DNA of 64,000 nt. Origin: a virus. The notes below the pieces were generated by a model, which saw nothing but the letters and a program-made list of their open reading frames with translations, had not been told where the DNA came from and searched no databases. Location: positions 62,001 to 126,000 of the IMG/VR virus record IMGVR_UViG_3300047089_000244. One strand, 5' to 3'. Position 1 is the stretch's first letter; every line of letters begins with the position of its first letter. Shown here in pieces: positions 38,591-64,000 of the stretch. The position numbers and the translations under genes were made by a program.

Positions 38591-38731
38591 TTACTTGCTC
38601 TTGGGAAATGCGCTCAGCCACAGTACGATGTCAGCCGCACGATGCTGATGCTTGATGCGCTCAGGCAATACGCGCAGAGCCGCTCCAGTGAAAAACACGC
38701 TCCAGAATCGAGCATTCTTTATAGCACTCAT
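38591..38731 (-). CDS. 46-residue membrane-like protein
   Basis: ARFWSVFFTGAALRVLPERI, then basic. The start overlaps the AAA+ gene stop (ATGA). Amphipathic; function unknown. Confidence 0.6.
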   Translation of the reverse strand: MSAIKNARFWSVFFTGAALRVLPERIKHQHRAADIVLWLSAFPKSK

Positions 38732-39987
38732 GATATCTCCTCCTTCTGCTGCTCCTGACGGAGCGCCTTGATTAGCTCCGCAGGGCTCTTCCCAGCGAAG
38801 GTTCGACTATATGCAAGATAGTCCTCTCCACGATAGCAGCCTGCGATATAGCTAGCAAGTGCTGCGGCCTGATCTTCATCTAAGGCCGTAAACTCTTCAT
38901 CAACATCCACGCGACCTGCGCGAATGAGCGCATCATCTAAAGCATCACGATTGTTGGTGGTCATGACCGTAATAAGACCATGAGGAGTCCATACACCATC
39001 GAGCGCATTAAGCATAGCTGCGATAGTCGTACCGTCCTCGTCATTGCGCTCAGTCATGGCATGGAATACATCGACATCCTCAAGCAAGAGCATGGACTTC
39101 GGCTCAATAGCCGTCACCAAGCTCATAAGATCAGCATCCTTGTCAAGATCACCAAGGGGAAGATAGTAAATGGGTATGCCAAAGTGATTAGCAAGGGCTC
39201 TAGCCACACTAGTCTTACCCGTGCCGGGTTCGCCATGGAATAGATAACCCCGGTGCCATGGTTGACTAGTGCGACCATAAATATCCTCGCTAGCCAAAAA
39301 GACCTCTAAATCCTTAACCAGATGTTGAATCTGATTCTCCTTGAGCACCACACTGTCAAGCGTCCTAGGAGGTAAATCACTTCGCTTGTTCCATGAGCCA
39401 CCCCAACGGCTTGGTATAAGAAGCGGTGGCGGACCAGATTTCTTATACTTGGCCTTTTGTAGACCCTCGATCATCCTCACAACGGCGTCACGACCTTTAG
39501 TATTTGTGGCCGAGAATGTGATTTTCTCCAAAATCCTACGATATTCCTCAGGTATTTTCTCGCGCCCTCCTGAGAACTCCTCACGAGTCACACTGACCAT
39601 AACTTTACAGCCATCAATCACAACCACTTGCGTACGACTCCCGTCGTAACGTAACTTTACAGGAGGAGTTGAATCCTTGTCATTATCTCCCTCGTAACAC
39701 ATATCGCGATGCCTGTTCTCGCCCGTGCTGGCGATCAGAGCCTTACGATCGTGCTCAGGGATACGAGCTAAGAGCCACTCGTGCAAATGCGGATAGATAT
39801 CATCCGTACCCGCTATTGTGATTGTGTAATCCTCGTGCCTACGAGTCCATGCGATCCCTGATTTGATCATAGGCGCTGCAACCTGTGCTGCTGCAATAGC
39901 GGCGAGAGCCTTGCCCGCATGTTTGCCGCCATATTTCTCGATGATGTCTAGATGTTTCGCTTTGATCGTCGGGAGGCCGTCTACCAT
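38728..39987 (-). CDS. Bcs1-like AAA+ ATPase
   Basis: 419 residues. RGYLFHGEPGTGKTSVARAL (Walker A, residues 247-266), SMLLLEDVDVF (Walker B, 298-308), NALDGVWTPHGLITVMTTNN (sensor 1) and LIRAGRVD (arginine finger region). This is the Bcs1 branch; mitochondrial Bcs1 translocates folded proteins. Residues 1-240 are a phage-specific N-terminal domain. Role in the phage is unknown; remodelling of a protein complex is likely. Confidence 0.85.
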   Translation of the reverse strand: MVDGLPTIKAKHLDIIEKYGGKHAGKALAAIAAAQVAAPMIKSGIAWTRRHEDYTITIAGTDDIYPHLHEWLLARIPEHDRKALIASTGENRHRDMCYEGDNDKDSTPPVKLRYDGSRTQVVVIDGCKVMVSVTREEFSGGREKIPEEYRRILEKITFSATNTKGRDAVVRMIEGLQKAKYKKSGPPPLLIPSRWGGSWNKRSDLPPRTLDSVVLKENQIQHLVKDLEVFLASEDIYGRTSQPWHRGYLFHGEPGTGKTSVARALANHFGIPIYYLPLGDLDKDADLMSLVTAIEPKSMLLLEDVDVFHAMTERNDEDGTTIAAMLNALDGVWTPHGLITVMTTNNRDALDDALIRAGRVDVDEEFTALDEDQAAALASYIAGCYRGEDYLAYSRTFAGKSPAELIKALRQEQQKEEIS

Positions 39988-40262
39988 GCGTTGGAGTGTA
40001 GCAGACCCTCTTTCTCGCGGAGCGTCTGCCCTGCATTGGTTCCCTTCGGGGGCTCCTTACCTAGCGACCGTGTACATCGCCAAGTAACCGGGCAGACGGC
40101 GCAATATAGAATCGGCGTACCAGAAGAACGCTGTTCATTTTCGCTCATGCGGCAGTTCGAGCAACCCAGGAATGCTGCCCCTAAGGGGACTACGAACTCT
40201 CCCTTAGCTTTCTTGTCGGCTTGATACTTACGTATTTCTAATTCACGGAGATTAGCACTCAT
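39981..40262 (-). CDS. Small Cys-rich protein
   Basis: 93 residues. GCSNCRMSENEQRSSG and YCAVCPVTWRCTR are two Cys pairs. Overlaps the AAA+ start by 7 bp and the giant protein stop by ATGA. Probable zinc ribbon. Confidence 0.7.
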   Translation of the reverse strand: MSANLRELEIRKYQADKKAKGEFVVPLGAAFLGCSNCRMSENEQRSSGTPILYCAVCPVTWRCTRSLGKEPPKGTNAGQTLREKEGLLHSNAW

Positions 40263-43200
40263 GACTGAACCAATTCTAGGTCTTCTCGTTCCTTGCGCTT
40301 CTTACGAATCTCTTGTGGTGGCTTAGGCATAGCTATATCGCCACCCTCTAGATCGTCTTCGTGTTCGTCTTCGTCGGTAGCCCCTTCTGCTCGTGGCAAC
40401 CCACCCCAACTCTCGCTACTTGCGCCAGGGCTCTGCATATGCCAAACATGTTCTCGTTGCTGAAGACAACCAGGACAATCGCATGCTACACTGTAAGCAT
40501 GATCAACCCCAATGCCCTTCTGCTGGTCGCCTTCACCACGGTCGTAGGCGCTCTCCTTGGTTCCGTTCTTATCGGCGCTGCGGTAGGCCTCGCTATCGTG
40601 CTGATTGCCACCATCGTTAACTGAGCCCTCAGCTTTCATATAGTTGCGAGGTTGATCCTGCGGATAGCCGACCGGGTGACCTTCAGGGATTGACCATGAG
40701 TGATCACTGTTCTCCTCAGTGGGGTTGAGTCCATGTACAGGGCAGTCAAGCTTGTGCCCCTGATCACATGTACATCCCTCTTTCTCTGGATGAGGATTGC
40801 CTTGTGCTGGCTCTTGCATCGTGGTAGGGGGCATCATACGCGCGTCTGGATACTCGCGTGTATCCGATTGGTCTGCTCCGAAGTGCCAATCGGTATGTTC
40901 ACCTGATCGAAGACTCGGTACGGTCTGAAAGATGTGGTTAATGATGTCAGCCGGGACAGGGTGAGCCTTAGTATCGAGTCCACCGCGTGGTCGGATATTG
41001 AAGAAGTGCGCGCTTCCTTCGCCTAGCTGATATGGAGCATGGCTATCCATGTACTCCGCATGGTGCGGGGAACCTTGTACATTGACTGCCCATGTATGCA
41101 CGTCACCACTAGGCGTCACAAGGCCCTTGCCTGGGATACCCGAGCCTGGTAACCAAGCAAGTTGATGGCTGGCTTCCCTGAACGAGCGATACCCATCGTC
41201 TGCCATTTTCCCGTCAGGGCCGTCGCCCCATGTATGCTCGTCCCATTTGCCATAGCCATTAGGGGTAGCTTCCAAGTTATCCTCGAAGTCCTGCCAAGGC
41301 ATGGCGAACTCAGGAACAGAAGATGTAGGTATCACGCGCGGCTCTCCATCGATTCCCTCACCAACCGGCTTGCCTCGAAAGCCAACCACCCACCGATCTT
41401 GTGGGTCCCAACTCATATGACTCATGTATTCAGAGAGGTGATGGGGATTCCAGAACGATGAATACCCCGGCTTGCGATACTTCTCGCGCATAGTGTCAGA
41501 TATTCCATTGTCCTCGATCGGCACCGTCTCTGCGTGCTCGGTTCCCCACCAAGGCGCATCTGGATGATGCGCACGATAGTAGAGGCCGTTCTCCATCGGC
41601 AACGCCGTTAGCTGTTCGCCAGCTACTCTAGCGTACGCTGTCTGCCAGCTTTTGCTGCTCTCAGTAGGATCGGGTGAGTAACCATGAGCTTTGGCAAATT
41701 CGCGTAACTTGATAGAGCTTGGTTCCGTAATAGAAGCGTTGCCGTGACCAAGCGCGTTATTGATCGCCTGGTCGCCGGGATGTCCACTCAAAAAGAATGA
41801 GGCATGAGGATAGCCCGTAGGATCGCGCAAGCTCATCCATTGGTGATAGGGATACTGGCCTCCAAAGTTATCAATGGAGAAATCATCTAGAGTCTTATAA
41901 GGCTCGTTGGTGTACTCTGTTTCTCCATCGATTTCTCGTCCGGTCCCGCGAAGTCCTTTAGCCCAACAATTATGCATAAGCTGACCCTCCCGCTGACGAT
42001 CCTCTGGGGTCACGAGCTTATGAATTCGCCATTGATCAGGAAATTCATGAACCACTTGCGAAGTATCGGGACCCACTTGCTCAAGAGCCCGAGCCCGTTG
42101 AGGTTGAGTTAGCCCCCCTATGTGCTCGGGGAGATTCACAACTTCCTTCTCGATCTCCGACGGCTCATGCACCTTGAACTCACGAGCCCAGTCTTCCTCT
42201 AGATCGTCAGGCGCTCGATCGGTAGTCACATCCGTGTGCTTCTCAAGAAGCTCCTTCATGATGCCTATGCCTTTGGCATTATGGGAGTGGATGTTCACAC
42301 TCTTGGGCATATGCTTGCGGTGCTCATGCAACCAAATTACAAAGTCGCCGCCGCTCAGCGCATCTGGATTAATGACGACTTTACCCTCGTATTTGACTAT
42401 ACCCAAGTCATGATCAAGCGACATATGAGCGTAGTCATTATCCTTGGCGAGCTTTTTTGCTTCGCTTGCATCTTTGGCCCAATCCCAAGACTCATCAGGG
42501 GGATGTCGCGTATCGTCTAGCCAGAGTTTGTGCCTCGTAAAGGCTAGCCTAGACTGAAAATCCCAGTATTGCTCCTTGCCCTTGAATCCCACGTCCTTGA
42601 TACGAGGATCAGCCTGTTCTACGATATGGCGATAATCACGCGGGTCGTTTTCGCCATACTGATCTGGGCGTGGCTTATAGAATTTGACGCGACCTGCCTG
42701 AGAGATGTTGAAACATGTGTCCCAGAACGTCGTTGGCTGTCCTTCCCACTCGCCACCGTGGGGATCGTAGTCGCCGCCCTCATTAACCATACCTTTGGGA
42801 TGATTGAGCCCAAAGACCTTTTCAGCGTACTGAACATGGCTTGGTCTTCCGTCCTGACCGCTCGTAGGCCACGTATGTACATTGCCCTGAGGATCAAGCA
42901 TACCCTTGCCAGGGGTACCCGGCTCCCAGTTGAGTTGATTACCTTGATTATCAGAGACCTTTGTCTCTGCCCGCATCCAGGTGCGTGGAGCATCTGTGTG
43001 ATAGTCATAGCCCACGGGGCTAGATGGATCTGGGAAATCCAGAGAGTCATCATAAGTTGGTAGCGTCGGATGCAGACCGTGACATGGGCAATCCAACTTA
43101 TGGCCATCTTTGCATGTGCAATCCACATCAACGGGCTCACCATTTCGCTCTCGTAAAGCATTTGGCCATTGATCCTTTGGGTTCCAGCTATCAGCCACCT

Positions 43201-44431
43201 TAGCCGTAGGTTGCCCTATTTTCCACTCAGGGAGAATTTCTTTCTCTTGCCTCTCCCGCCAATATGATCCTGGCTCCTTTAACTCATTCTCAGCATTTTG
43301 AGTATGCTCATATGGTTCATGCAAAGTCAAAGCCTCGGGTAGAATAGAGTGAAGAGCCACTGTCATTCCTGTATCAGGGAAAATAGGATCGTCAATCGCT
43401 TCGTCAATATATGAAGGATCAACCTTCCAAAGATCTCCACGTATATCGACTCCTCCCCCTGCATCCTCAGGATGAGGGGCTAAGTAGACACCTTCAGGTT
43501 GATGTGCCACACTTCCAGCCTCCTCATTGTCGGCCTCTCCCCATGCCGGATTTAAACGGGGATGTGAAACTTGTAATCCGTGCTGCATAATGCGAGCACG
43601 ATCCTCTGTGGGAGCCATATGATAATATGACTCATCTTCGTCATTCCAGTCAGCAATGAAGTGAAGCAACTGAGACTCATATGATGGACGCACTCGTGCT
43701 ATCCTCCATGTATGAGCTCTTTTTTGATGGTCTTTCTTGTCACCCTTTACATGTTCTTGCTCTGTACCATCATCTATATCCTCTCGCGGTGGTGACACTG
43801 AGCTTATCTCTGTCTCGAAGGTAAGCTTAGGTGGCTTGAGCCCTTTTGGTAGCGAGCCATATGCAATCGTCATGTGCGGCTTGAAATCATCATGAGAATA
43901 GGGGCTGATCTCAATACCGTGATCTTCAGCGCGGTCAGCTAATTGATCGTGATGCTCCCGAATCGTATCACTATCACAAGTCAAAACTATAGCATCTTGA
44001 CCCTCTCCCTTCTCTTTAGATGGGAATGCCTTAATATCCTTGATCGTGACCGCATGTTGGTCTTCTGGCCAACCCTGCTCTTTCTCCGAGAAAACATCAC
44101 TTGTCTCAGGAGCATAAAGCATCGTGATGTGATATTCCTCAATTGGCTCAAGCTCTGTGCCCTCCGGCCAATCCTGTTCTTCAGCCCAATTATGGATCTC
44201 AATGCCGATAGGCTTAGGGATACCAAGCCCTATGTGTAACTCATCCCTCTTAGCGGTCTTGATCGAATCATTGTTAGGCGTAAGTTTTTTGATACGCCAT
44301 TCTTCGAGGCGCTCATCTTGAATGGCTTTAACGCGCTGCTCTTGTGGATTGAGAGTGTACGCACGCTCAGATGGTGTCATCTCGATTTCACTCTTATCCC
44401 ATGCACTTGCCTTGGAGGCTTGAGTCAACAT
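40259..44431 (-). CDS. Giant polyvalent protein: 2H + ART + cpREC + PcfJ-like + GKG/HTW
   Basis: 1390 residues; GGAGGCGTCC before ATG. Order: 2H phosphoesterase (H101-I-T, H186-M-T); ART/Tpt1-like (268-372, YYHMAPTEDRARIMQHGL); Cys/His knuckle CTCKDGHKLDCPCHGL (439-453); GKG/HTW module (499-630); cyclic-phosphate receiver (634-735, LWLDDTR, SLDHDLG, NIHSHN); PcfJ-like region (785-915, EGQLMHNCW, SLRDPTGYPHASF); second GKG/HTW module (1090-1190); second knuckle near 1213. Several RNA-end-processing domains in one chain suggest an ejected RNA-repair or anti-defence protein. The individual domain calls rest on motifs only. Confidence 0.8.
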   Translation of the reverse strand: MLTQASKASAWDKSEIEMTPSERAYTLNPQEQRVKAIQDERLEEWRIKKLTPNNDSIKTAKRDELHIGLGIPKPIGIEIHNWAEEQDWPEGTELEPIEEYHITMLYAPETSDVFSEKEQGWPEDQHAVTIKDIKAFPSKEKGEGQDAIVLTCDSDTIREHHDQLADRAEDHGIEISPYSHDDFKPHMTIAYGSLPKGLKPPKLTFETEISSVSPPREDIDDGTEQEHVKGDKKDHQKRAHTWRIARVRPSYESQLLHFIADWNDEDESYYHMAPTEDRARIMQHGLQVSHPRLNPAWGEADNEEAGSVAHQPEGVYLAPHPEDAGGGVDIRGDLWKVDPSYIDEAIDDPIFPDTGMTVALHSILPEALTLHEPYEHTQNAENELKEPGSYWRERQEKEILPEWKIGQPTAKVADSWNPKDQWPNALRERNGEPVDVDCTCKDGHKLDCPCHGLHPTLPTYDDSLDFPDPSSPVGYDYHTDAPRTWMRAETKVSDNQGNQLNWEPGTPGKGMLDPQGNVHTWPTSGQDGRPSHVQYAEKVFGLNHPKGMVNEGGDYDPHGGEWEGQPTTFWDTCFNISQAGRVKFYKPRPDQYGENDPRDYRHIVEQADPRIKDVGFKGKEQYWDFQSRLAFTRHKLWLDDTRHPPDESWDWAKDASEAKKLAKDNDYAHMSLDHDLGIVKYEGKVVINPDALSGGDFVIWLHEHRKHMPKSVNIHSHNAKGIGIMKELLEKHTDVTTDRAPDDLEEDWAREFKVHEPSEIEKEVVNLPEHIGGLTQPQRARALEQVGPDTSQVVHEFPDQWRIHKLVTPEDRQREGQLMHNCWAKGLRGTGREIDGETEYTNEPYKTLDDFSIDNFGGQYPYHQWMSLRDPTGYPHASFFLSGHPGDQAINNALGHGNASITEPSSIKLREFAKAHGYSPDPTESSKSWQTAYARVAGEQLTALPMENGLYYRAHHPDAPWWGTEHAETVPIEDNGISDTMREKYRKPGYSSFWNPHHLSEYMSHMSWDPQDRWVVGFRGKPVGEGIDGEPRVIPTSSVPEFAMPWQDFEDNLEATPNGYGKWDEHTWGDGPDGKMADDGYRSFREASHQLAWLPGSGIPGKGLVTPSGDVHTWAVNVQGSPHHAEYMDSHAPYQLGEGSAHFFNIRPRGGLDTKAHPVPADIINHIFQTVPSLRSGEHTDWHFGADQSDTREYPDARMMPPTTMQEPAQGNPHPEKEGCTCDQGHKLDCPVHGLNPTEENSDHSWSIPEGHPVGYPQDQPRNYMKAEGSVNDGGNQHDSEAYRSADKNGTKESAYDRGEGDQQKGIGVDHAYSVACDCPGCLQQREHVWHMQSPGASSESWGGLPRAEGATDEDEHEDDLEGGDIAMPKPPQEIRKKRKEREDLELVQS
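40485..40492 (+). promoter_or_regulatory. Possible antisense leaderless promoter
   Basis: TGC-TACACT (40487-40492), 6 nt before ATG 40499, on the strand opposite the 1390-residue gene. Confidence 0.4.
40499..40624 (+). CDS. Possible antisense membrane micro-protein
   Basis: 41 residues, MINPNALLLVAFTTVVGALL then GSVLIGAAVGLAIVLIATIV: hydrophobic helices with glycine zippers. It lies inside the giant gene on the other strand. Antisense of hydrophilic coding is often hydrophobic by chance; only the exact promoter spacing makes it worth listing. Confidence 0.3.
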   Translation: MINPNALLLVAFTTVVGALLGSVLIGAAVGLAIVLIATIVN

Positions 44432-55629: not shown

Positions 55630-55758
55630 TTAGAAGATCACTTCAAAGAGCCCGATGAACGCTAAGCAGACGAGCGTCTCAATGGCGAAGAGACGCACGC
55701 CTTCCTGCCATGTAGGCTGGGGGTTCCAGGAGTTCCAAAGCGCAATCAATCGCTTCAT
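55630..55758 (-). CDS. 42-residue membrane protein
   Basis: MKRLIALWNSWNPQPTWQEG then VRLFAIETLVCLAFIGLFEV: one helix. ATGA overlap with the SWIM protein stop. Confidence 0.65.
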   Translation of the reverse strand: MKRLIALWNSWNPQPTWQEGVRLFAIETLVCLAFIGLFEVIF

Positions 55759-57020
55759 CGTCGTCTCACCGCCGGTCCCGCTGGTGGGACATCAGGGCGT
55801 AGTATAAGATCATTTGGCCAAAACCATCCGGTGACTCCATGTGGTTCCATTCTACCAGCTTCGGCTTGCGGACCGGCGAAGTAGACATTCACGAGCCCCA
55901 TAGGATCGGTGCCAAGAACCTCGCCGAGGCTATTTGCAGGGATTTCCTTGGTGTCGCCTGCGTTGAGACCAACTGTCTGTCCGTGGTCTGCTCGCTTCAA
56001 CTGGACCATATCGCCGTTACGGAACTGTTCCGTAGCAACACGCGAGAATGTACCGCCGGGGTTCTGCATGGGATTGAGAGGCGTCTGTGGCTTCTGTCCC
56101 GGCACCGAAACAGGATTGATGGCTGGCTGGAGAGAAGGGTCGTGTGGATATTGAGGAATCAAGCTCTGTGGTTCGGGCGCTTGACCAGGGACCGTTCCGG
56201 CAGGTTCAGGCGGGGGTGCGGTTTGATTAGGTAGTCCAGGCTTCTGTGGTCCCGGTGTACCGGCTGGTGACACCATTCCTGTACCGCCTCCCGGTACCTG
56301 CTCCATGCCCGGAGTAGGTCCCGCAGGCTGTGGAACTCCTTCTGGTGGCGCTGGAGCGCCTTCTCCGCCACCTGGTTGTGGTTCCTGCGGACCTTCAGCA
56401 CCAGGTCCTATTTCTTCATCAAGCGGCGTACCCAAAGACTGCCAGTACGTAGCAAGGACGTGTGAGCATACGCGACCCTCAAGCCGCTTCCATTGGCGCG
56501 TTCGTTGCCACGCGAACTGATCCCACTTGCATTCGCATGACCACGTTGCAATAGCCTGCGAATTCGGATCGTTACGCTGGACTTCCGTGTTGTAGGTACC
56601 ATGATCTCCTTCGACTACACCTGTGACGATTTCACGCGAGTTACGAGTGATCTTAACCTTCCCCGTTTTGATCAGACGTGTAGCCTTGGCCTGAATGTCC
56701 GGCCAGCCCGCTTCCTTGATCAAAGCCTCATCGGCATAATCCCAGTCAAGTGAATAAGAAGCTGGCTTAATACCGTGACCCTCTAACTGATTAGCAATGA
56801 TCACATAGGCATAACGACGATCAAGTGGAGTGCCACCAGAAGCGAAGATGTGCGCGGTACCTGGGACAGTGGGAAACCAACCAGCCTGCACAGCACCAAG
56901 ACGCATCGTGCGCTCAGGGAGCTTTGGGGGTTCACAGGCTAATGCAACTCGACAGTAATCCTCGAACCATGCCTCAGAGCTTTGTGTTGCAATAACGTTA
57001 GACCAATCCATTCTACCCAT
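55755..57020 (-). CDS. SWIM-like zinc finger virion-type protein
   Basis: About 421 residues from ATG 57020 (57011 also possible, with CATAAT 7 nt before it). ATWSCECKWDQFAWQRTRQW then GRVCSHVLATYWQ is a C-x-C...C-x-H SWIM-like site (residues about 155-195). A long proline-rich linker (residues about 215-345) ends in an SH3-like part (GDMVQLKRADHGQTVGLNAG). In this genome such long linkers are typical of virion-type proteins. Confidence 0.65.
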   Translation of the reverse strand: MGRMDWSNVIATQSSEAWFEDYCRVALACEPPKLPERTMRLGAVQAGWFPTVPGTAHIFASGGTPLDRRYAYVIIANQLEGHGIKPASYSLDWDYADEALIKEAGWPDIQAKATRLIKTGKVKITRNSREIVTGVVEGDHGTYNTEVQRNDPNSQAIATWSCECKWDQFAWQRTRQWKRLEGRVCSHVLATYWQSLGTPLDEEIGPGAEGPQEPQPGGGEGAPAPPEGVPQPAGPTPGMEQVPGGGTGMVSPAGTPGPQKPGLPNQTAPPPEPAGTVPGQAPEPQSLIPQYPHDPSLQPAINPVSVPGQKPQTPLNPMQNPGGTFSRVATEQFRNGDMVQLKRADHGQTVGLNAGDTKEIPANSLGEVLGTDPMGLVNVYFAGPQAEAGRMEPHGVTGWFWPNDLILRPDVPPAGPAVRRR

Positions 57021-57051
57021 TATGACATAGATGGATGTCTGATCTACGTTT

Positions 57052-57366
57052 CTAGGCGTGATGCTTATGGAGGCGATGGTGATGGTGCTTCTTAATCTTA
57101 CGATGATGCTTAGGAGGATTAGAAGGCGTAATGGGAGTTGCAATTAGCACCGTAGGACCTTTTGTTTCGTCCGTTTCGTCAATTACTTCACTTTCTGGCG
57201 GTATCACGGTCACTTCGTTAGTCGTCCATTCTTCCATCACCGCGCACCCTTCGAGGCCACAGACTTCCTTAACGACAATTGGAGACGTTTCTTCTGCGTG
57301 CGCCGATGTAGCACCGAGAAGCAAGATGATAAGAGCAATACAAAAATAGAAGTACAAACGGGTCAT
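57052..57366 (-). CDS. Secreted protein with His-rich tail
   Basis: 104 residues. A signal peptide (LYFYFCIALIILLLGATSAH), a domain with two Cys (VCGLEGCAVMEEW), a Thr/Pro stalk and a His/Lys tail (HHRKIKKHHHHRLHKHH). Similar tails end or interrupt the proteins at 47585 and 19629. A metal- or wall-binding tail is possible. Confidence 0.75.
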   Translation of the reverse strand: MTRLYFYFCIALIILLLGATSAHAEETSPIVVKEVCGLEGCAVMEEWTTNEVTVIPPESEVIDETDETKGPTVLIATPITPSNPPKHHRKIKKHHHHRLHKHHA

Positions 57367-57558: not shown

Positions 57559-57587
57559 ATTCTACACTATGGGCTGTTCGTAGTCAA
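57559..57587 (-). promoter_or_regulatory. Phage promoter, leaderless type
   Basis: Minus-strand TTGACT (57587 to 57582), 17-nt spacer, TAGAAT (57564 to 57559), 7 nt to ATG 57551. Confidence 0.75.
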
Positions 57588-59250
57588 GGCCACGAACAGG
57601 GACTTCATCGTTGATCTGGCTATCCCACATAGCTTGTTGATGACCATCCCAAGCTCGTTGGTGAGCAGTGTCGTAGTCATCATGGCCTTCGGTCACGTCA
57701 AGGATCACCTGGTCGCCTTGAATCCACGAGCCCACGAACTTCTCAGGGTCCCGTAGACGATCAGCGAAGCGCTGGATAAAGGCTTCTACATCGGCTCTTT
57801 TAAAGTTATTCAACGAGAACGCCGTCTGGGTTGCAAGATCAGGAGCGAAGCCATAACGCGCATGCGGAGGTTCGCCATGAAGATTGATCGTACCCCCTGT
57901 TCCCTCGATAGCCGCCTCATAGATCCGCTGGGCCACTTGACCTACATCGATCTTGGCTTGGAAGTTCCAACGTGTATCTGGGGCATCAGCGGGTTGGATC
58001 GTAGGTGGCTCACCTATGTAACTTACCTTTGGGTCCTCGATAGCCCACTCTGGATGCAGCATGTCTCTCGGGTTTGTGAATTTGGTTCCAGGTATCGCGC
58101 GCCGTAATGCCTCCTCCGTTTTATACCCTTCATGATAACTGTGACCACCATAAGCCTCTGCGTAGCCATTCGCTCCTATAGTACCCCAAGTTGTATTTGG
58201 AGGTAGGCCTTCGCCCCATATCGGATGATATCTAAGTTGATCATGCGTAGCCTTCTCACCCTCTTCGCGCCCCATCTCGCCAAGCAAAAGATGATTGGCT
58301 GCCGGATCATATACGAACTTAGCTATCTGTCGATCATAAGGAGCGGCGGTCCTGCTCAGGGTGCCACGCGTCTCCTTCTGGTAACTATCACAGAGTTGGT
58401 CAGCCCTTACTCCATATTCGCCATACCCCCAACACTTGCCGCGACCACCTTTGTTCTTATGATACATCTTACAAGACAAACAGTTCTTGGTGGGTGAACC
58501 TTGACGCAGACGAGGAGGCTTAACCGGCGCGCCCGCTATCTTAGCTATATACTCACCGCTAGCCTGACTGATCTCTGGGAAGAGTCCTCGATTGGCAAGC
58601 ATCTTGTAAATAATATTGGACTCAGAGAAGTCCCCCTTTCCCTTCACCATGTCGCGCTGGCGCTTCTTGTGAATCGAATGCCAGAAGGCGATAGCCTGCT
58701 CAGGCTCGTACTTTAGTAACCTTTCCATCTTGTCAGCCATCTGTAATCCCCACGCATAGAAGCCACCCTGCTCCTTCTGCACATCATGAACGCGACCTCG
58801 CTCAGGTGGCACGATCCATTTGTTGTTGTCGAGATTATACCCGGAGCGTAGTCCTGGCTTGTAGAGATCACTTGGCTTGATCCCCTCACCGACTACAAAA
58901 TCCTGAAGAGGGTGCGGGGTACCAGGGAGTAATACGCCATCGAGCTTCTCTACCATGAGAGCAATCATCTCCGCGCGTGACCACTCCGGGAAGATCCTGG
59001 TATCCACAAAGAGGCTGATATCTACGTCACTGTCGTCGCTGTACTGATAAGTCGTGAGAGAGCCCGTAAGGACGAGCGTCAACCACTTCTCAACGTCCGT
59101 GTAGCCACCGTCTTCGAGAGTCTTGTAGACATGACTCTTGATCCAATGTGCATGAATAGGCTTGAGGATGGGCTTGTCTGCCGCAGGGTTGTCCCACACA
59201 CGCGCATCAAGTTCAGCGTGTATAGGGTCTAAGATATTACCGAGTCGCAT
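57562..59250 (-). CDS. Polyvalent virion-type protein with minimal NTase
   Basis: 562 residues. TLVLTGSLTTYQYSDDSDVD (residues 58-77) is the GS...DxD signature of DNA polymerase-beta-like nucleotidyltransferases, with a further acidic site expected later. Residues about 255-290 hold NCLSCKMYHKNKGGRGKCW and LCDSY, a Cys cluster. Residues about 300-450 hold FVYDPAANHLLLGE, HDQLRYH and WNFQAKI, relatives of the module in other giant proteins. Target unknown; NTases of this size modify RNA ends, antibiotics or proteins. Confidence 0.75.
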   Translation of the reverse strand: MRLGNILDPIHAELDARVWDNPAADKPILKPIHAHWIKSHVYKTLEDGGYTDVEKWLTLVLTGSLTTYQYSDDSDVDISLFVDTRIFPEWSRAEMIALMVEKLDGVLLPGTPHPLQDFVVGEGIKPSDLYKPGLRSGYNLDNNKWIVPPERGRVHDVQKEQGGFYAWGLQMADKMERLLKYEPEQAIAFWHSIHKKRQRDMVKGKGDFSESNIIYKMLANRGLFPEISQASGEYIAKIAGAPVKPPRLRQGSPTKNCLSCKMYHKNKGGRGKCWGYGEYGVRADQLCDSYQKETRGTLSRTAAPYDRQIAKFVYDPAANHLLLGEMGREEGEKATHDQLRYHPIWGEGLPPNTTWGTIGANGYAEAYGGHSYHEGYKTEEALRRAIPGTKFTNPRDMLHPEWAIEDPKVSYIGEPPTIQPADAPDTRWNFQAKIDVGQVAQRIYEAAIEGTGGTINLHGEPPHARYGFAPDLATQTAFSLNNFKRADVEAFIQRFADRLRDPEKFVGSWIQGDQVILDVTEGHDDYDTAHQRAWDGHQQAMWDSQINDEVPVRGLDYEQPIV

Positions 59251-60235: not shown

Positions 60236-60399
60236 CACGTCTCCGAAAGTGTGCAAAGTGTGCAGTCAGGTAGGATGCCATTCTCAACGTAATCATTCCA
60301 GATCGTAAGGATTATCGTCACGTCAATGATGATTCCCTGCGTCGATAGTGTGTCTGCTCGCTGGATGGCTAGTTCCAACATACGTAATCTATGCTTCAT
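60235..60399 (-). CDS. 54-residue protein
   Basis: MKHRLRMLELAIQRADTLST, then IIIDVTIILTIWNDYV and a CTLC end. GGAGGTATG precedes the ATG, which overlaps the giant gene stop. Confidence 0.6.
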   Translation of the reverse strand: MKHRLRMLELAIQRADTLSTQGIIIDVTIILTIWNDYVENGILPDCTLCTLSET

Positions 60400-63300
60400 C
60401 ATACCTCCGGTTGTGCGTTGATATACTCTTGCGCTCGCTGGAGTAACGCGCTCTTCTCATTGAGAGTCGGGTCCGCCACCACATCGTTAGTTAGCTGTCG
60501 TAGGATTGTACCAACTTGTGGTCCCGGTTTCAAGCCGAGAGCCAAGAGGTCGTTCCCGTTGACGCTAATCGCCGACTGGGTGGTAGGCGCTCCGGACTGC
60601 CGAGACTGCTCCACGAGTTCGCGCATCGTATCAACAGGCGTCTTATAGGACGTATCGATTCCTTTGCCCTCGTTATCAGCCGCACGGAGCGTTAAGAGGT
60701 CATCTGCCGCCTCTCCCGTCTTGTTCAGGAACTTACGAGCCCCCTTAGCACTAGAGAATTGCGGGAACATGTGCTGCGAGATCAAGTTGTGAATGTTGCG
60801 AATTTTGGTGACCGGATAGTTAAAGGTCTGGCGTAGGCGAGCCTCAGTCATATCCGCTCCGACTTTGGCGTGGTCGGCTCCCACTGGGACCCCTTCCAGC
60901 ATGCCCGCGTAGTAGTGTGTCACGCCCGTCGCTGGGTCTATCCATGCAGAAGCGGGCTTGCCCGTATCATGCAAGAGAGCAGCTAGGCGCAGGTCTGGAT
61001 CTTTGGAAGCGCGCGAGACATTATCGAACACATTTAGGCTATGCTCACCTAGTGAATAATTATGGTGAGGGTTTTTCTGATCATAGTCGAAGTTATTCGC
61101 TAGCTCAGGGAAGAGATGTTTGAGTACGCCTGTTTCCTGAGCCAAGCGGAATGCGCCCGCTGGATTAGCGCTCGTCAGAAGCTTCTCAAGCTGTTGCTTT
61201 AGCGCATCAGGTGACTCCTGATCCAGACGGTGAGCGTACTCTTCCATCTCCTTACGCGTCTGCTCGTCCGGAACCAGTCCGTGGCGGGAGTGCATCGTGA
61301 GGGCTCGGACCAAACGTGTTGGGTCCTCATCGAATGATCCTGGGTGAGTAGTCCGTAAAGTATGGGACTCAATGTCTCTAGCTCCTCCGTAGGGATCAAG
61401 CAATCGCCCCGACGAGTCAAGATCAACGGCCATAGAATTGGCCGTAAAGTCTCGTCGCTGTAAGTCTTTCTCGATTGGGAGATGATGATCGACTGTGATT
61501 TTTCCTTGTCCACGGGTTCCTCCTGATTCGTATGTGTCGGTGCGAGGAAGTGCGATCTCGACCTCTTGGCCTTTGGTATGATAGCGGTAGACGCCAAAGC
61601 GCTTACCCGTAAGATCCACGCGGCCCGGTAGATGCTCCAAGATGTTATTCACGTCCTCGGGCGGAATACCCGATACCATAAGATCAATGTCCTTAGGCTC
61701 CTTCTGAAGGAGAGCATCTCGCACGGCTCCACCAACGACATAGACCTTACCGCCAGCTTCTTTAAGAGCTTGTGAGGCCGTCCAAGCAGCACCATCAGCA
61801 GCCGTAATCGAACGGATGTATGTGCCTACGTCCGCCGAAGCAACCTTGTGCTTTTCTCCTGTCTGGCTTTCCATTTCGAGGCTCGTGATCTCTAGTCCTG
61901 GGTGACTATAGTACCACAACTGCATCATGTGATATGTGGAGAACGGGATAGTAGTCGTCGTATTGATGACCATCTTACCCTTTGGTTCGTAGTATCCCTC
62001 CACGATGCCACCTGGTGTAAACTGCCCCATGATGTCTGGAGTACGCATACCGGGGTGGCCTACCGTGATATAGTCCTTTTCGATGTCGTAGATGAAGGGG
62101 ATTGGAGCCTGAAGCAAGTCCTTTCCTTCTTTGCCGCCTGCGGCCTCGAAGTGCCACCCCGCTTCGTTCCTCCATCCAGGACCAATCGGTTGTAGGTGTT
62201 CTGGAAGTTGAGAAGTTCCGTCTCTCTGTGCCTGCACGAACTCCTTAACCCGGTTCAAGTGAGATACGTCCTCAGGAAGATCATCCTCTGTGATGTATTG
62301 GCCCCCGTGTGCGCCTATTTCTGTAGCGTGCTTGCCACGAGGGTCATAGGAGAACGAAGCATGTGGCCAATTGTTGGGATCTCTCAAAGAGAGATTCATG
62401 TCCGCCCCCATTACATGCTGACTAGAAGGATCGTAAACCATATCGTTTTGATCCTCTGATGTGCCCATACCTCCCCAGCAATGGTGCATCATGTCCCCCT
62501 CTCTACCAACCTCATTCCAGCTAGGCAAATGTCGAATAGTCCACCCATCAGGAAATTGATGAAGAATCTCCGTCTGCTCTGGTCCATGTACCTCTTCGAG
62601 TTTTGTCTTAAACCGTTGTTGTTGAGGAACGGTCATTCGTCCGAAGTGCCATTTGTCTGATGAAACAAAAGCCCCCATCACAGGAATAGCCGTAGGTGTG
62701 ACGTTGCGCGGTCGCAGTGGCAATGGCTCGTCTTTGTCTTCGATGGTCGGGAAGTGTCCGTCATCGATCGGCGCAGCTTTGGGGTCCTGGTGATCCTGCG
62801 TATGCATAACGTAGGCTTTGAAATCTGGTAGCGTCTCGTTGCAATATGGGCAGGTGAGTTGACCTTGGGGCTCGCCATCAAAAGCTTTGCCCGGTTCTGC
62901 TTCTGGATCGCCCTTGTCGTATGTGGTCGGCCACTCCTTGTTCTTGATACGATCGTTCATGTCCGTGCCACCTGGGTACTCTGCAATGCGATACCCAAAG
63001 TCATCTGCCCATTCGATTAGTCCCGGCAGAGCAAACGGATTTGGAGGACGGTTGAAACTAGCTGTACGACCTACTATCTCGATCTCATCGTGATTACCCC
63101 AGAACGGGCGACTGCTGAGCTTAAGCTTACCCTCGCGCCATCCATACCAGTATGACTTCTTGGCTCCAAAATCATCATGAATTGGTTGACCACTGCTATC
63201 TACCAAGCCACCCCACTTCCATCCAACTTGCTTGCTGTAATCCTTCATCATTTTTACTAGCCCGCGCAAGCCGATGTTGCTCTCGACACTCCAGAGAGCA

Positions 63301-64000
63301 TCACGTCCGCGCACATTGACATACCCAACGGCCATCGGGCCGTTATGATCGGGAGCGATCTGAGCCTCTTCTGCCATCTGTTCGTGGTCGTCTACGGGTG
63401 AGACTTTGAACTCGCCGTTGCCGAAGATGAACTTATACTCATGCTCAACAGGTTCCTCCATCGAGAGATTGAGGTCGTCTATCACCGGGTCGTGGAAATC
63501 GCGTTGATTGAATTCCTCTTCTGCCTGCGGGCCTTCGCCAGGATACGCGTCGGAACCCGATCCACCGGAGTCGGCTTGCTTCAGAATCTTACCCTCTAGA
63601 GCGGCATTAGCACGTTCGGCAAATAACTGTGATCGCTGAGTGATGTTTGGCGACTGTTCTAGGTCTTCCCAGTCACGTTTGTCCTGTCCTGGTTGAGGAT
63701 CACTCTGAATGCGGAAGTCGCGATAGAGAGGATTGGTTGCATGCGTGTAGACAATTGGGCCTGGCCTATGGCGCATCTGTTCAGGCTCATACTCATAGGG
63801 CTCATCCTCCGCGTCTTGTGGGCGCGGCGTACCTTTGACAGGAGTGAAAGCATACTGGTCGCCTGTGAGATCCACGACGTAATTCCTATCTGGGCTCACC
63901 CAGAAGAAGTGACCTTCCTTCTGGCCAATATGTCCGCCGCCGAGCTTGCTCTGAAGCCACTTAGATGTAACGTAACAATGTCCAGCGCTCGGCTGTGGAT
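60399..64000 (-). CDS. Polyvalent virion-type protein with CCA-adding tRNA nucleotidyltransferase, 5' partial
   Basis: The frame is open to the window edge; residue numbers here count from an in-frame GTG at 63899. Upstream codons read HCYVTSKWLQSKLGGGHIGQ, a Cys-type N-terminal domain. Then a C2H2 finger CPYCNETLPDFKAYVMHTQ(DH) (350-370); a PcfJ-like region (440-555, GREGDMMHHCWGG, NLSLRDPNNWPHASF); and a complete class-II tRNA nucleotidyltransferase: KVYVVGGAVRDALLQKEPKD-I-D (718-739), RRDFTANSMAVD (815-826), FDEDPTRLVRAL (856-867), then an HD domain GEHSLNVFD, LLHDTGK (951-981). Expected function: add or repair the CCA end of tRNA. Confidence 0.85.
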   Translation of the reverse strand, partial: PQPSAGHCYVTSKWLQSKLGGGHIGQKEGHFFWVSPDRNYVVDLTGDQYAFTPVKGTPRPQDAEDEPYEYEPEQMRHRPGPIVYTHATNPLYRDFRIQSDPQPGQDKRDWEDLEQSPNITQRSQLFAERANAALEGKILKQADSGGSGSDAYPGEGPQAEEEFNQRDFHDPVIDDLNLSMEEPVEHEYKFIFGNGEFKVSPVDDHEQMAEEAQIAPDHNGPMAVGYVNVRGRDALWSVESNIGLRGLVKMMKDYSKQVGWKWGGLVDSSGQPIHDDFGAKKSYWYGWREGKLKLSSRPFWGNHDEIEIVGRTASFNRPPNPFALPGLIEWADDFGYRIAEYPGGTDMNDRIKNKEWPTTYDKGDPEAEPGKAFDGEPQGQLTCPYCNETLPDFKAYVMHTQDHQDPKAAPIDDGHFPTIEDKDEPLPLRPRNVTPTAIPVMGAFVSSDKWHFGRMTVPQQQRFKTKLEEVHGPEQTEILHQFPDGWTIRHLPSWNEVGREGDMMHHCWGGMGTSEDQNDMVYDPSSQHVMGADMNLSLRDPNNWPHASFSYDPRGKHATEIGAHGGQYITEDDLPEDVSHLNRVKEFVQAQRDGTSQLPEHLQPIGPGWRNEAGWHFEAAGGKEGKDLLQAPIPFIYDIEKDYITVGHPGMRTPDIMGQFTPGGIVEGYYEPKGKMVINTTTTIPFSTYHMMQLWYYSHPGLEITSLEMESQTGEKHKVASADVGTYIRSITAADGAAWTASQALKEAGGKVYVVGGAVRDALLQKEPKDIDLMVSGIPPEDVNNILEHLPGRVDLTGKRFGVYRYHTKGQEVEIALPRTDTYESGGTRGQGKITVDHHLPIEKDLQRRDFTANSMAVDLDSSGRLLDPYGGARDIESHTLRTTHPGSFDEDPTRLVRALTMHSRHGLVPDEQTRKEMEEYAHRLDQESPDALKQQLEKLLTSANPAGAFRLAQETGVLKHLFPELANNFDYDQKNPHHNYSLGEHSLNVFDNVSRASKDPDLRLAALLHDTGKPASAWIDPATGVTHYYAGMLEGVPVGADHAKVGADMTEARLRQTFNYPVTKIRNIHNLISQHMFPQFSSAKGARKFLNKTGEAADDLLTLRAADNEGKGIDTSYKTPVDTMRELVEQSRQSGAPTTQSAISVNGNDLLALGLKPGPQVGTILRQLTNDVVADPTLNEKSALLQRAQEYINAQPEV

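Follow-up and report, generated by a model that had tools for sequence, protein, structure and literature searches.

What is a complete CCA-adding tRNA nucleotidyltransferase doing at the end of a giant phage protein, and is the fusion real? The gene lies at the edge of the 64,000-nucleotide stretch that was analysed (the window; G000:C1:62001-126000 of a 169,966-bp virus record) and runs out of it (Table 1). The open reading frame originally reported, 60399-63899 on the minus strand, is the inner portion of a longer 1235-aa frame, the full gene spanning G000:C1:122399-126106 with an ATG start at 126106. A class II CCA-adding enzyme with an HD domain occupies residues ~785–1235, after ~780 residues of unrelated modules. 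Full-length relatives found in IMG/VR are 61–86% identical to this protein and more distant ones 38–40% identical in the N-terminus; since nine related loci conserve the fused protein, the gene is not a chance reading frame. The record is metagenomic and some relatives carry two genes at this locus, as would be expected if an assembly or frame error had fused neighbours. That explanation has almost no probability: independent contigs rule it out, a single open frame encodes the chain in six distinct viruses (the window phage, L003, L004/L007, L005, L021 and L022), and dN/dS comparison among the relatives indicates that purifying selection acts on the sequence to either side of the junction. 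The claim of the initial annotation that the enzyme is fused into a longer chain is thereby borne out.

Table 1. Features of the fused gene and of other modular proteins of the window phage, in window coordinates.
Feature	Position	Strand	Details
Fused gene	60399..64000	(-)	1235 aa in total; runs off the window, start codon 106 bp outside
YunG-like domain	63786..64000, first part outside window	(-)	Residues 13-107; Pfam 2.4e-6, 28.2 bits against a cut-off of 27
C2H2-type zinc-finger pattern CX2CX12HX3H	62790..62852	(-)	Residues 419-439; Pfam not significant
Variable module, PcfJ-like in the window phage	62226..62648	(-)	Residues 487-627; GNAT or zinc ribbon there in relatives
Conserved pre-CCA domain, function unknown	61857..62141	(-)	Residues 656-750; 99% to 46% identical in relatives
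CCA nucleotidyltransferase head, PolyA_pol	61353..61745	(-)	Residues 788-918; Pfam 1.7e-25
Motif A (GGAVRD...DID)	61683-61733	(-)	Residues 792-808
Motif B (RRDFTANSM)	61431-61457	(-)	Residues 884-892
Motif D (EDPTRLVRA), nucleotide-template motif	61302..61328	(-)	Residues 927-935; EDPTR invariant
RNA-binding domain, PolyA_pol_RNAbd	61095..61271	(-)	Residues 946-1004; Pfam 3.3e-10
HD domain	60756..61049	(-)	Residues 1020-1117; Pfam 4.7e-7; HDTGK at 1046-1050
C-terminal tRNA_NucTran2_2	60438..60581	(-)	Residues 1176-1223; Pfam 2.8e-7
Next gene, MNT-like nucleotidyltransferase with variable C-terminal modules	57562..59250	(-)	Weak model match; second modular protein of the block
SWIM-like zinc protein	55755..57143	(-)	Same conserved block
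Multi-enzyme 1390-aa protein	40259..44431	(-)	2H/Acb1-like, cREC and PcfJ-like domains

The enzyme part is complete, as had been claimed at the outset. Its PolyA_pol, PolyA_pol_RNAbd, HD and tRNA_NucTran2_2 matches all exceed the curated Pfam cut-offs. Motif A (GGxxRD...DxD) is present with both carboxylates and is invariant in nine aligned rows, and motifs B (RRDxTxN) and D (EDxxR) are also present. Every catalytic residue is kept in nine relatives (59–86% identity), in which the class II motifs are invariant; loss of the active-site aspartates or template residues, named initially as grounds against the assignment, occurs in 0 of 9. The dN/dS of the nucleotidyltransferase part is 0.036–0.089 in the pairs where synonymous change could be estimated, synonymous sites being near saturation. 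An AlphaFold model built on the nine-row alignment has pLDDT values mostly of 85–96 across the enzyme part, and the leading Foldseek matches of this model are CCA enzymes (E ~1e-16 to 1e-14, TM on target 0.63–0.80). In a sequence search of the PDB, the first match is the Thermotoga maritima CCA-adding enzyme (3h37, 1.1e-29). The module thus resembles class II CCA enzymes with an HD domain (the E. coli Cca type and the actinobacterial TIGR02692) in motifs A, B and D, RNA-binding, HD and C-terminal domains and predicted fold, but differs from them in being embedded behind the unrelated N-terminal residues.

Poly(A) polymerases belong to the same superfamily, so we considered whether the polymerase part could instead add poly(A), or belong to some other type of 3'-end nucleotidyltransferase (CC-adding, A-adding or toxin-like), and act on other RNAs. 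The pcnB model does match, at 1e-36, and an LTGKRF stretch in the enzyme partly resembles the poly(A) polymerase signature. However, CCA models outscore pcnB, the top NCBIfam model being the actinobacterial CCA enzyme TIGR02692 at 2.7e-57; the HD and tRNA_NucTran2_2 parts suit a CCA enzyme; alignments to CCA enzymes of known structure show no loop deletion; and arrays of CCA-less tRNA genes are found in every long record of the window family. We therefore consider this alternative improbable, and the motifs, fold and models together indicate that the enzyme part is likely specific for CCA addition. The score lies far under the equivalog cut-off for TIGR02692 and other CCA models (194 vs 438.8 bits), as it does under the pcnB subfamily cut-off (126.7 vs 305.65 bits), and because the CCA subfamily cut-off is not reached we claim no named equivalog.

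The rest of the chain is a conserved frame around a changeable centre. The N-terminal 480 residues, with a YunG-like domain and a zinc-finger pattern, are conserved. Within the YunG-like domain Cys44, His66 and Asp79 are invariant across nine rows, which is suggestive of a putative peptidase; in a comparison with papain-like peptidases, YunG was the sole match. The AlphaFold model of this region is poor (pLDDT 58), its Foldseek search returned nothing with E below 0.001 and weak gelsolin-like matches, and the region has zero matches among 50,697 phage records. The C2H2 finger of the initial annotation holds as a pattern whose ligands are kept in the five closest relatives, but not as a significant Pfam match. 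Likewise, the PcfJ-like label falls below the Pfam threshold (0.15), yet the same domain recurs in the 1390-aa protein of this phage (39% identity at 6e-13; 34% by blastp at 1e-13). In relatives the same position holds a GNAT domain (L004/L005/L007; Pfam 1.6e-6 in L004) or a zinc-ribbon-like module (L003). ART-like inserts in L003, L023 and L059 and a ParB-like insert in L023 were read by eye and set aside, having no Pfam support.

The chain had also been described as a structural-type protein. Neither Pfam nor PHROGs finds a virion structural domain in it, which leaves a structural role without support; a match to a 1153-aa Finch protein annotated as a virion protein was weak and short and was taken as chance. 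With modules swapping around a fixed frame and no structural domain, the behaviour is that of a polyvalent-type protein rather than a structural one. As described in the main text of Iyer et al. 2017 (PMC5512222), polyvalent proteins are long chains of disparate enzymes with module swapping and a late-gene position. The window protein joins nucleotidyltransferase, HD and YunG-like domains in one chain (with GNAT in L004), and its relatives shuffle domains among themselves. A catalogued PolyVal domain (ART-PolyVal and others) is absent from the window protein by Pfam and is present in two more distant fusions (L072 and L083, see below). The pol-beta domains in that main text are minimal MNT-like ones, and the text names no full CCA enzyme.

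Some other genes of the phage are modular too. The fused gene sits in one same-strand run after terminase and portal, near late genes, and relatives share a recurrent block order of portal, a phosphoesterase-like 440-aa ORF, a 255-aa ORF, the CCA fusion, a nucleotidyltransferase and a SWIM-like protein. In relatives the MNT-like head of the next gene (57562-59250) carries 2H-like or other tails. At L059:5905-7476 a Fic domain is fused ahead of the MNT-like nucleotidyltransferase (Pfam 8e-6, above cut-off), and the neighbouring modular gene of L003 (L003:12280-15393) has a LAGLIDADG domain that matches inteins weakly. The 255-aa ORF just upstream (L012:4120-4887; G000:C1:126120-126887) has, as read by eye, a zinc-ribbon-like start and a PD-(D/E)XK-like motif. 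The 1390-aa protein (40259-44431), which also has a candidate ART-like stretch, is another polyvalent-type protein, possibly with a counter-CBASS function. The same phage encodes a polynucleotide-kinase-like ORF and, at window 38728-39987, a BCS1-like AAA ATPase (AAA 7.6e-20, BCS1_N 1.1e-6, both above cut-off).

The enzyme need not be covalently attached in every phage. The gene is split in four relatives, with the CCA motifs intact in all, showing that the enzyme is a separable module and that the link is dispensable in some phages. In L006 an Endonuclease VII ORF (L006:10015-10485, Pfam 9.5e-21) lies between the halves, in L027 an HNH-like ORF (by eye; L027:5085-5661), in L023 the parts are adjacent genes, and in L059 a 483-aa CCA ORF stands beside a 560-aa ORF carrying the remainder. 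The two nuclease ORFs interrupt the gene at different places, and Rfam gave no intron family match for the L006 interruption. In the window gene, an internal start releasing the CCA part was looked for and rejected: codons 640–800 hold one start with a ribosome-site-like sequence, a TTG at 664, upstream of the pre-CCA domain. The natural splits, the invariant Cys44, His66 and Asp79 and the peptidases commonly held by polyvalent proteins (PMC5512222) are all compatible with a polyprotein that is cut by the YunG-like part or a phage protease to free an ordinary CCA enzyme, the fusion being mere co-expression or co-packaging. Given that the N-terminus matched no peptidase family and that its model is poor and its structural matches weak, we hold this to be possible but doubtful.

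A candidate role for the enzyme is found in the tRNA genes of the same phages. The window record has 37 tRNA predictions by ARAGORN and 34–35 by Rfam, and CCA is encoded in 0 of the 36 tRNA genes with clear acceptor stems. All seven related records over 50 kb have 28–44 tRNA genes each, with CCA encoded in 1 of 255 clear tRNAs across the seven phages; the same script reads CCA in 3/3 E. coli tRNAs. These records each have one PolyA_pol domain, which is either the fused copy or a split form. CT directly follows the discriminator base in ~60% of the CCA-less genes (L013, G000:C1:145163-157738, and the arrays of six related phages), while CAA is common at this position in jumbo phages of a second fused group; either is perhaps a 3' processing signal. 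ARAGORN also predicts a tmRNA (L013:11699-12045, minus strand, tag GNDDTLAIPASFLDGSFTARETHLALA), which is absent from the Rfam matches at gathering score.

We therefore favour, as the probable explanation, maturation and repair of phage tRNA 3' ends by a class II CCA enzyme housed in a polyvalent-type protein. On this reading a large tailed phage would make one chain of several domains, among them an active CCA-adding enzyme and an HD phosphohydrolase. The enzyme would complete the ~36 tRNAs of the phage with 3' CCA and restore this tail where infection has damaged the ends of phage and host tRNAs, and the HD domain may first clean phosphate-blocked ends. Both the tRNA substrate and the end cleaning are inferred. 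The remaining modules (YunG-like, and PcfJ-like, GNAT or zinc ribbon) could be separate activities or binding parts on the one chain. In the Bxz1-like Mycobacterium phage Pleione, a distant relation (terminase 34% identical to phages of that type), 25 of the 26 tRNAs in the cluster are without CCA and no CCA enzyme gene was found, so a host enzyme can suffice and the phage enzyme is extra capacity rather than a strict necessity.

Stand-alone phage tRNA nucleotidyltransferases (Myrna gp28, Klebsiella phage RaK2 gp031, Xanthomonas phage XacN1 ORF446) likewise occur beside phage tRNA genes. However, Mycobacterium phage Myrna gp28 is a 397-aa protein, 29–34% identical over the head domain, without the HD motif in the alignment, and in the tree it does not join the fused clade. 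A CCA-core scan of IMG/VR gave 80 loci, in which stand-alone enzymes of mostly 345–477 aa contrast with long frames, and CCA domains lie in much larger proteins in at least two further phage groups beside the window family. The window family and L065, L067, L068 and L069/L071 form clade A (support 100/99), which adjoins a group of stand-alone enzymes (96/91); L069-L071 have a C-terminal extension only (636–646 aa). Clade B (25 rows, support 93/98) includes phages of 246–372 kb, the upper limit of its records, with frames up to 2693 aa. In LR756501, a 735-kb phage, the CCA part forms the end of a 1237-aa frame. A single origin for all fusions was set aside with clades A and B separate in the tree, yet a joint clade is not firmly rejected (AU test, p 0.050), and separate origins are accordingly favoured on the sequence tree but not proven. 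The scan of bacterial genomes for carriers of the fusion gave only stand-alone planctomycete enzymes.

Several clade B proteins carry ART-PolyVal (L083 4.4e-21, L072 1.6e-9, Pfam), GNAT, 2H, tRNA-ligase phosphodiesterase (L089 4.6e-9) or RNA-repair HAD_SAK_1 domains (L085, above its cut-off); the scanned ones show no HD domain. Four jumbo clade B records have 38–55 tRNAs, and 8 of the 162 tRNAs that read clearly encode CCA. Elsewhere in clade B tRNAs are few or absent (G014, G018, G019), which counts against the preferred reading. The end-cleaning domain beside the nucleotidyltransferase differs between the two fused groups (HD in one; 2H, CPD or HAD in the other), which, as far as domain families can tell, supports a repair role. 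In setting RNA end-healing domains beside a nucleotidyltransferase, the fused proteins resemble the 'Swiss Army Knife' proteins of RNA repair (Pfam HAD_SAK_1) and the RNA repair sets of jumbo phages (PMC7824862), but those scanned showed no RNA ligase catalytic domain.

Polyvalent proteins, which lie near late genes in phages, are proposed to be injected (PMC5512222). The fused protein could be a virion-borne kit that enters with the DNA and serves chiefly to mend, early in infection, tRNA 3' ends that host anti-phage effectors have cut or blocked, rather than to mature phage tRNAs routinely. The same-strand run with terminase and portal, the end-healing partners in clade B and the polynucleotide-kinase-like and 2H/Acb1-like proteins of the window phage would fit. 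Against this, neither a packaging signal nor a MuF or portal fusion turned up, the N-terminal part is unmatched in the phage records searched, and the CCA-less phage tRNAs offer a simpler reason for the enzyme. We regard such a kit as unlikely, though worth weighing. Virion delivery would follow by analogy from the polyvalent-protein model and gene position, and virion packaging with proteolytic release of the fused protein is possible.

In the open-licence literature searched, the passages on CCA enzymes in the jumbo-phage review (PMC7824862) and in the huge-phage paper do not mention such fusions. A search for the same architecture shows that it is no one-off, with full-length relatives and further phage groups in IMG/VR.

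The usual accounts of phage tRNA clusters invoke codon usage or the replacement of tRNAs cut by host defences. A more speculative proposal, which we think rather improbable as a whole, is that large phages have, on two or more occasions, incorporated a CCA enzyme into giant polyvalent proteins that travel in the virion and also hold RNA end-healing domains (HD; or 2H, tRNA-ligase phosphodiesterase or HAD), giving a tRNA 3'-end repair kit that would enter with the genome and shield a largely CCA-less tRNA set from tRNA-attacking defences. With maturation and repair of phage tRNA ends as the preferred reading, a housekeeping tRNA enzyme has been recruited into the polyvalent-protein class, and its fusion to swappable modules, elsewhere RNA end-healing domains, in phages whose tRNAs need CCA makes the repair and maturation idea directly testable.
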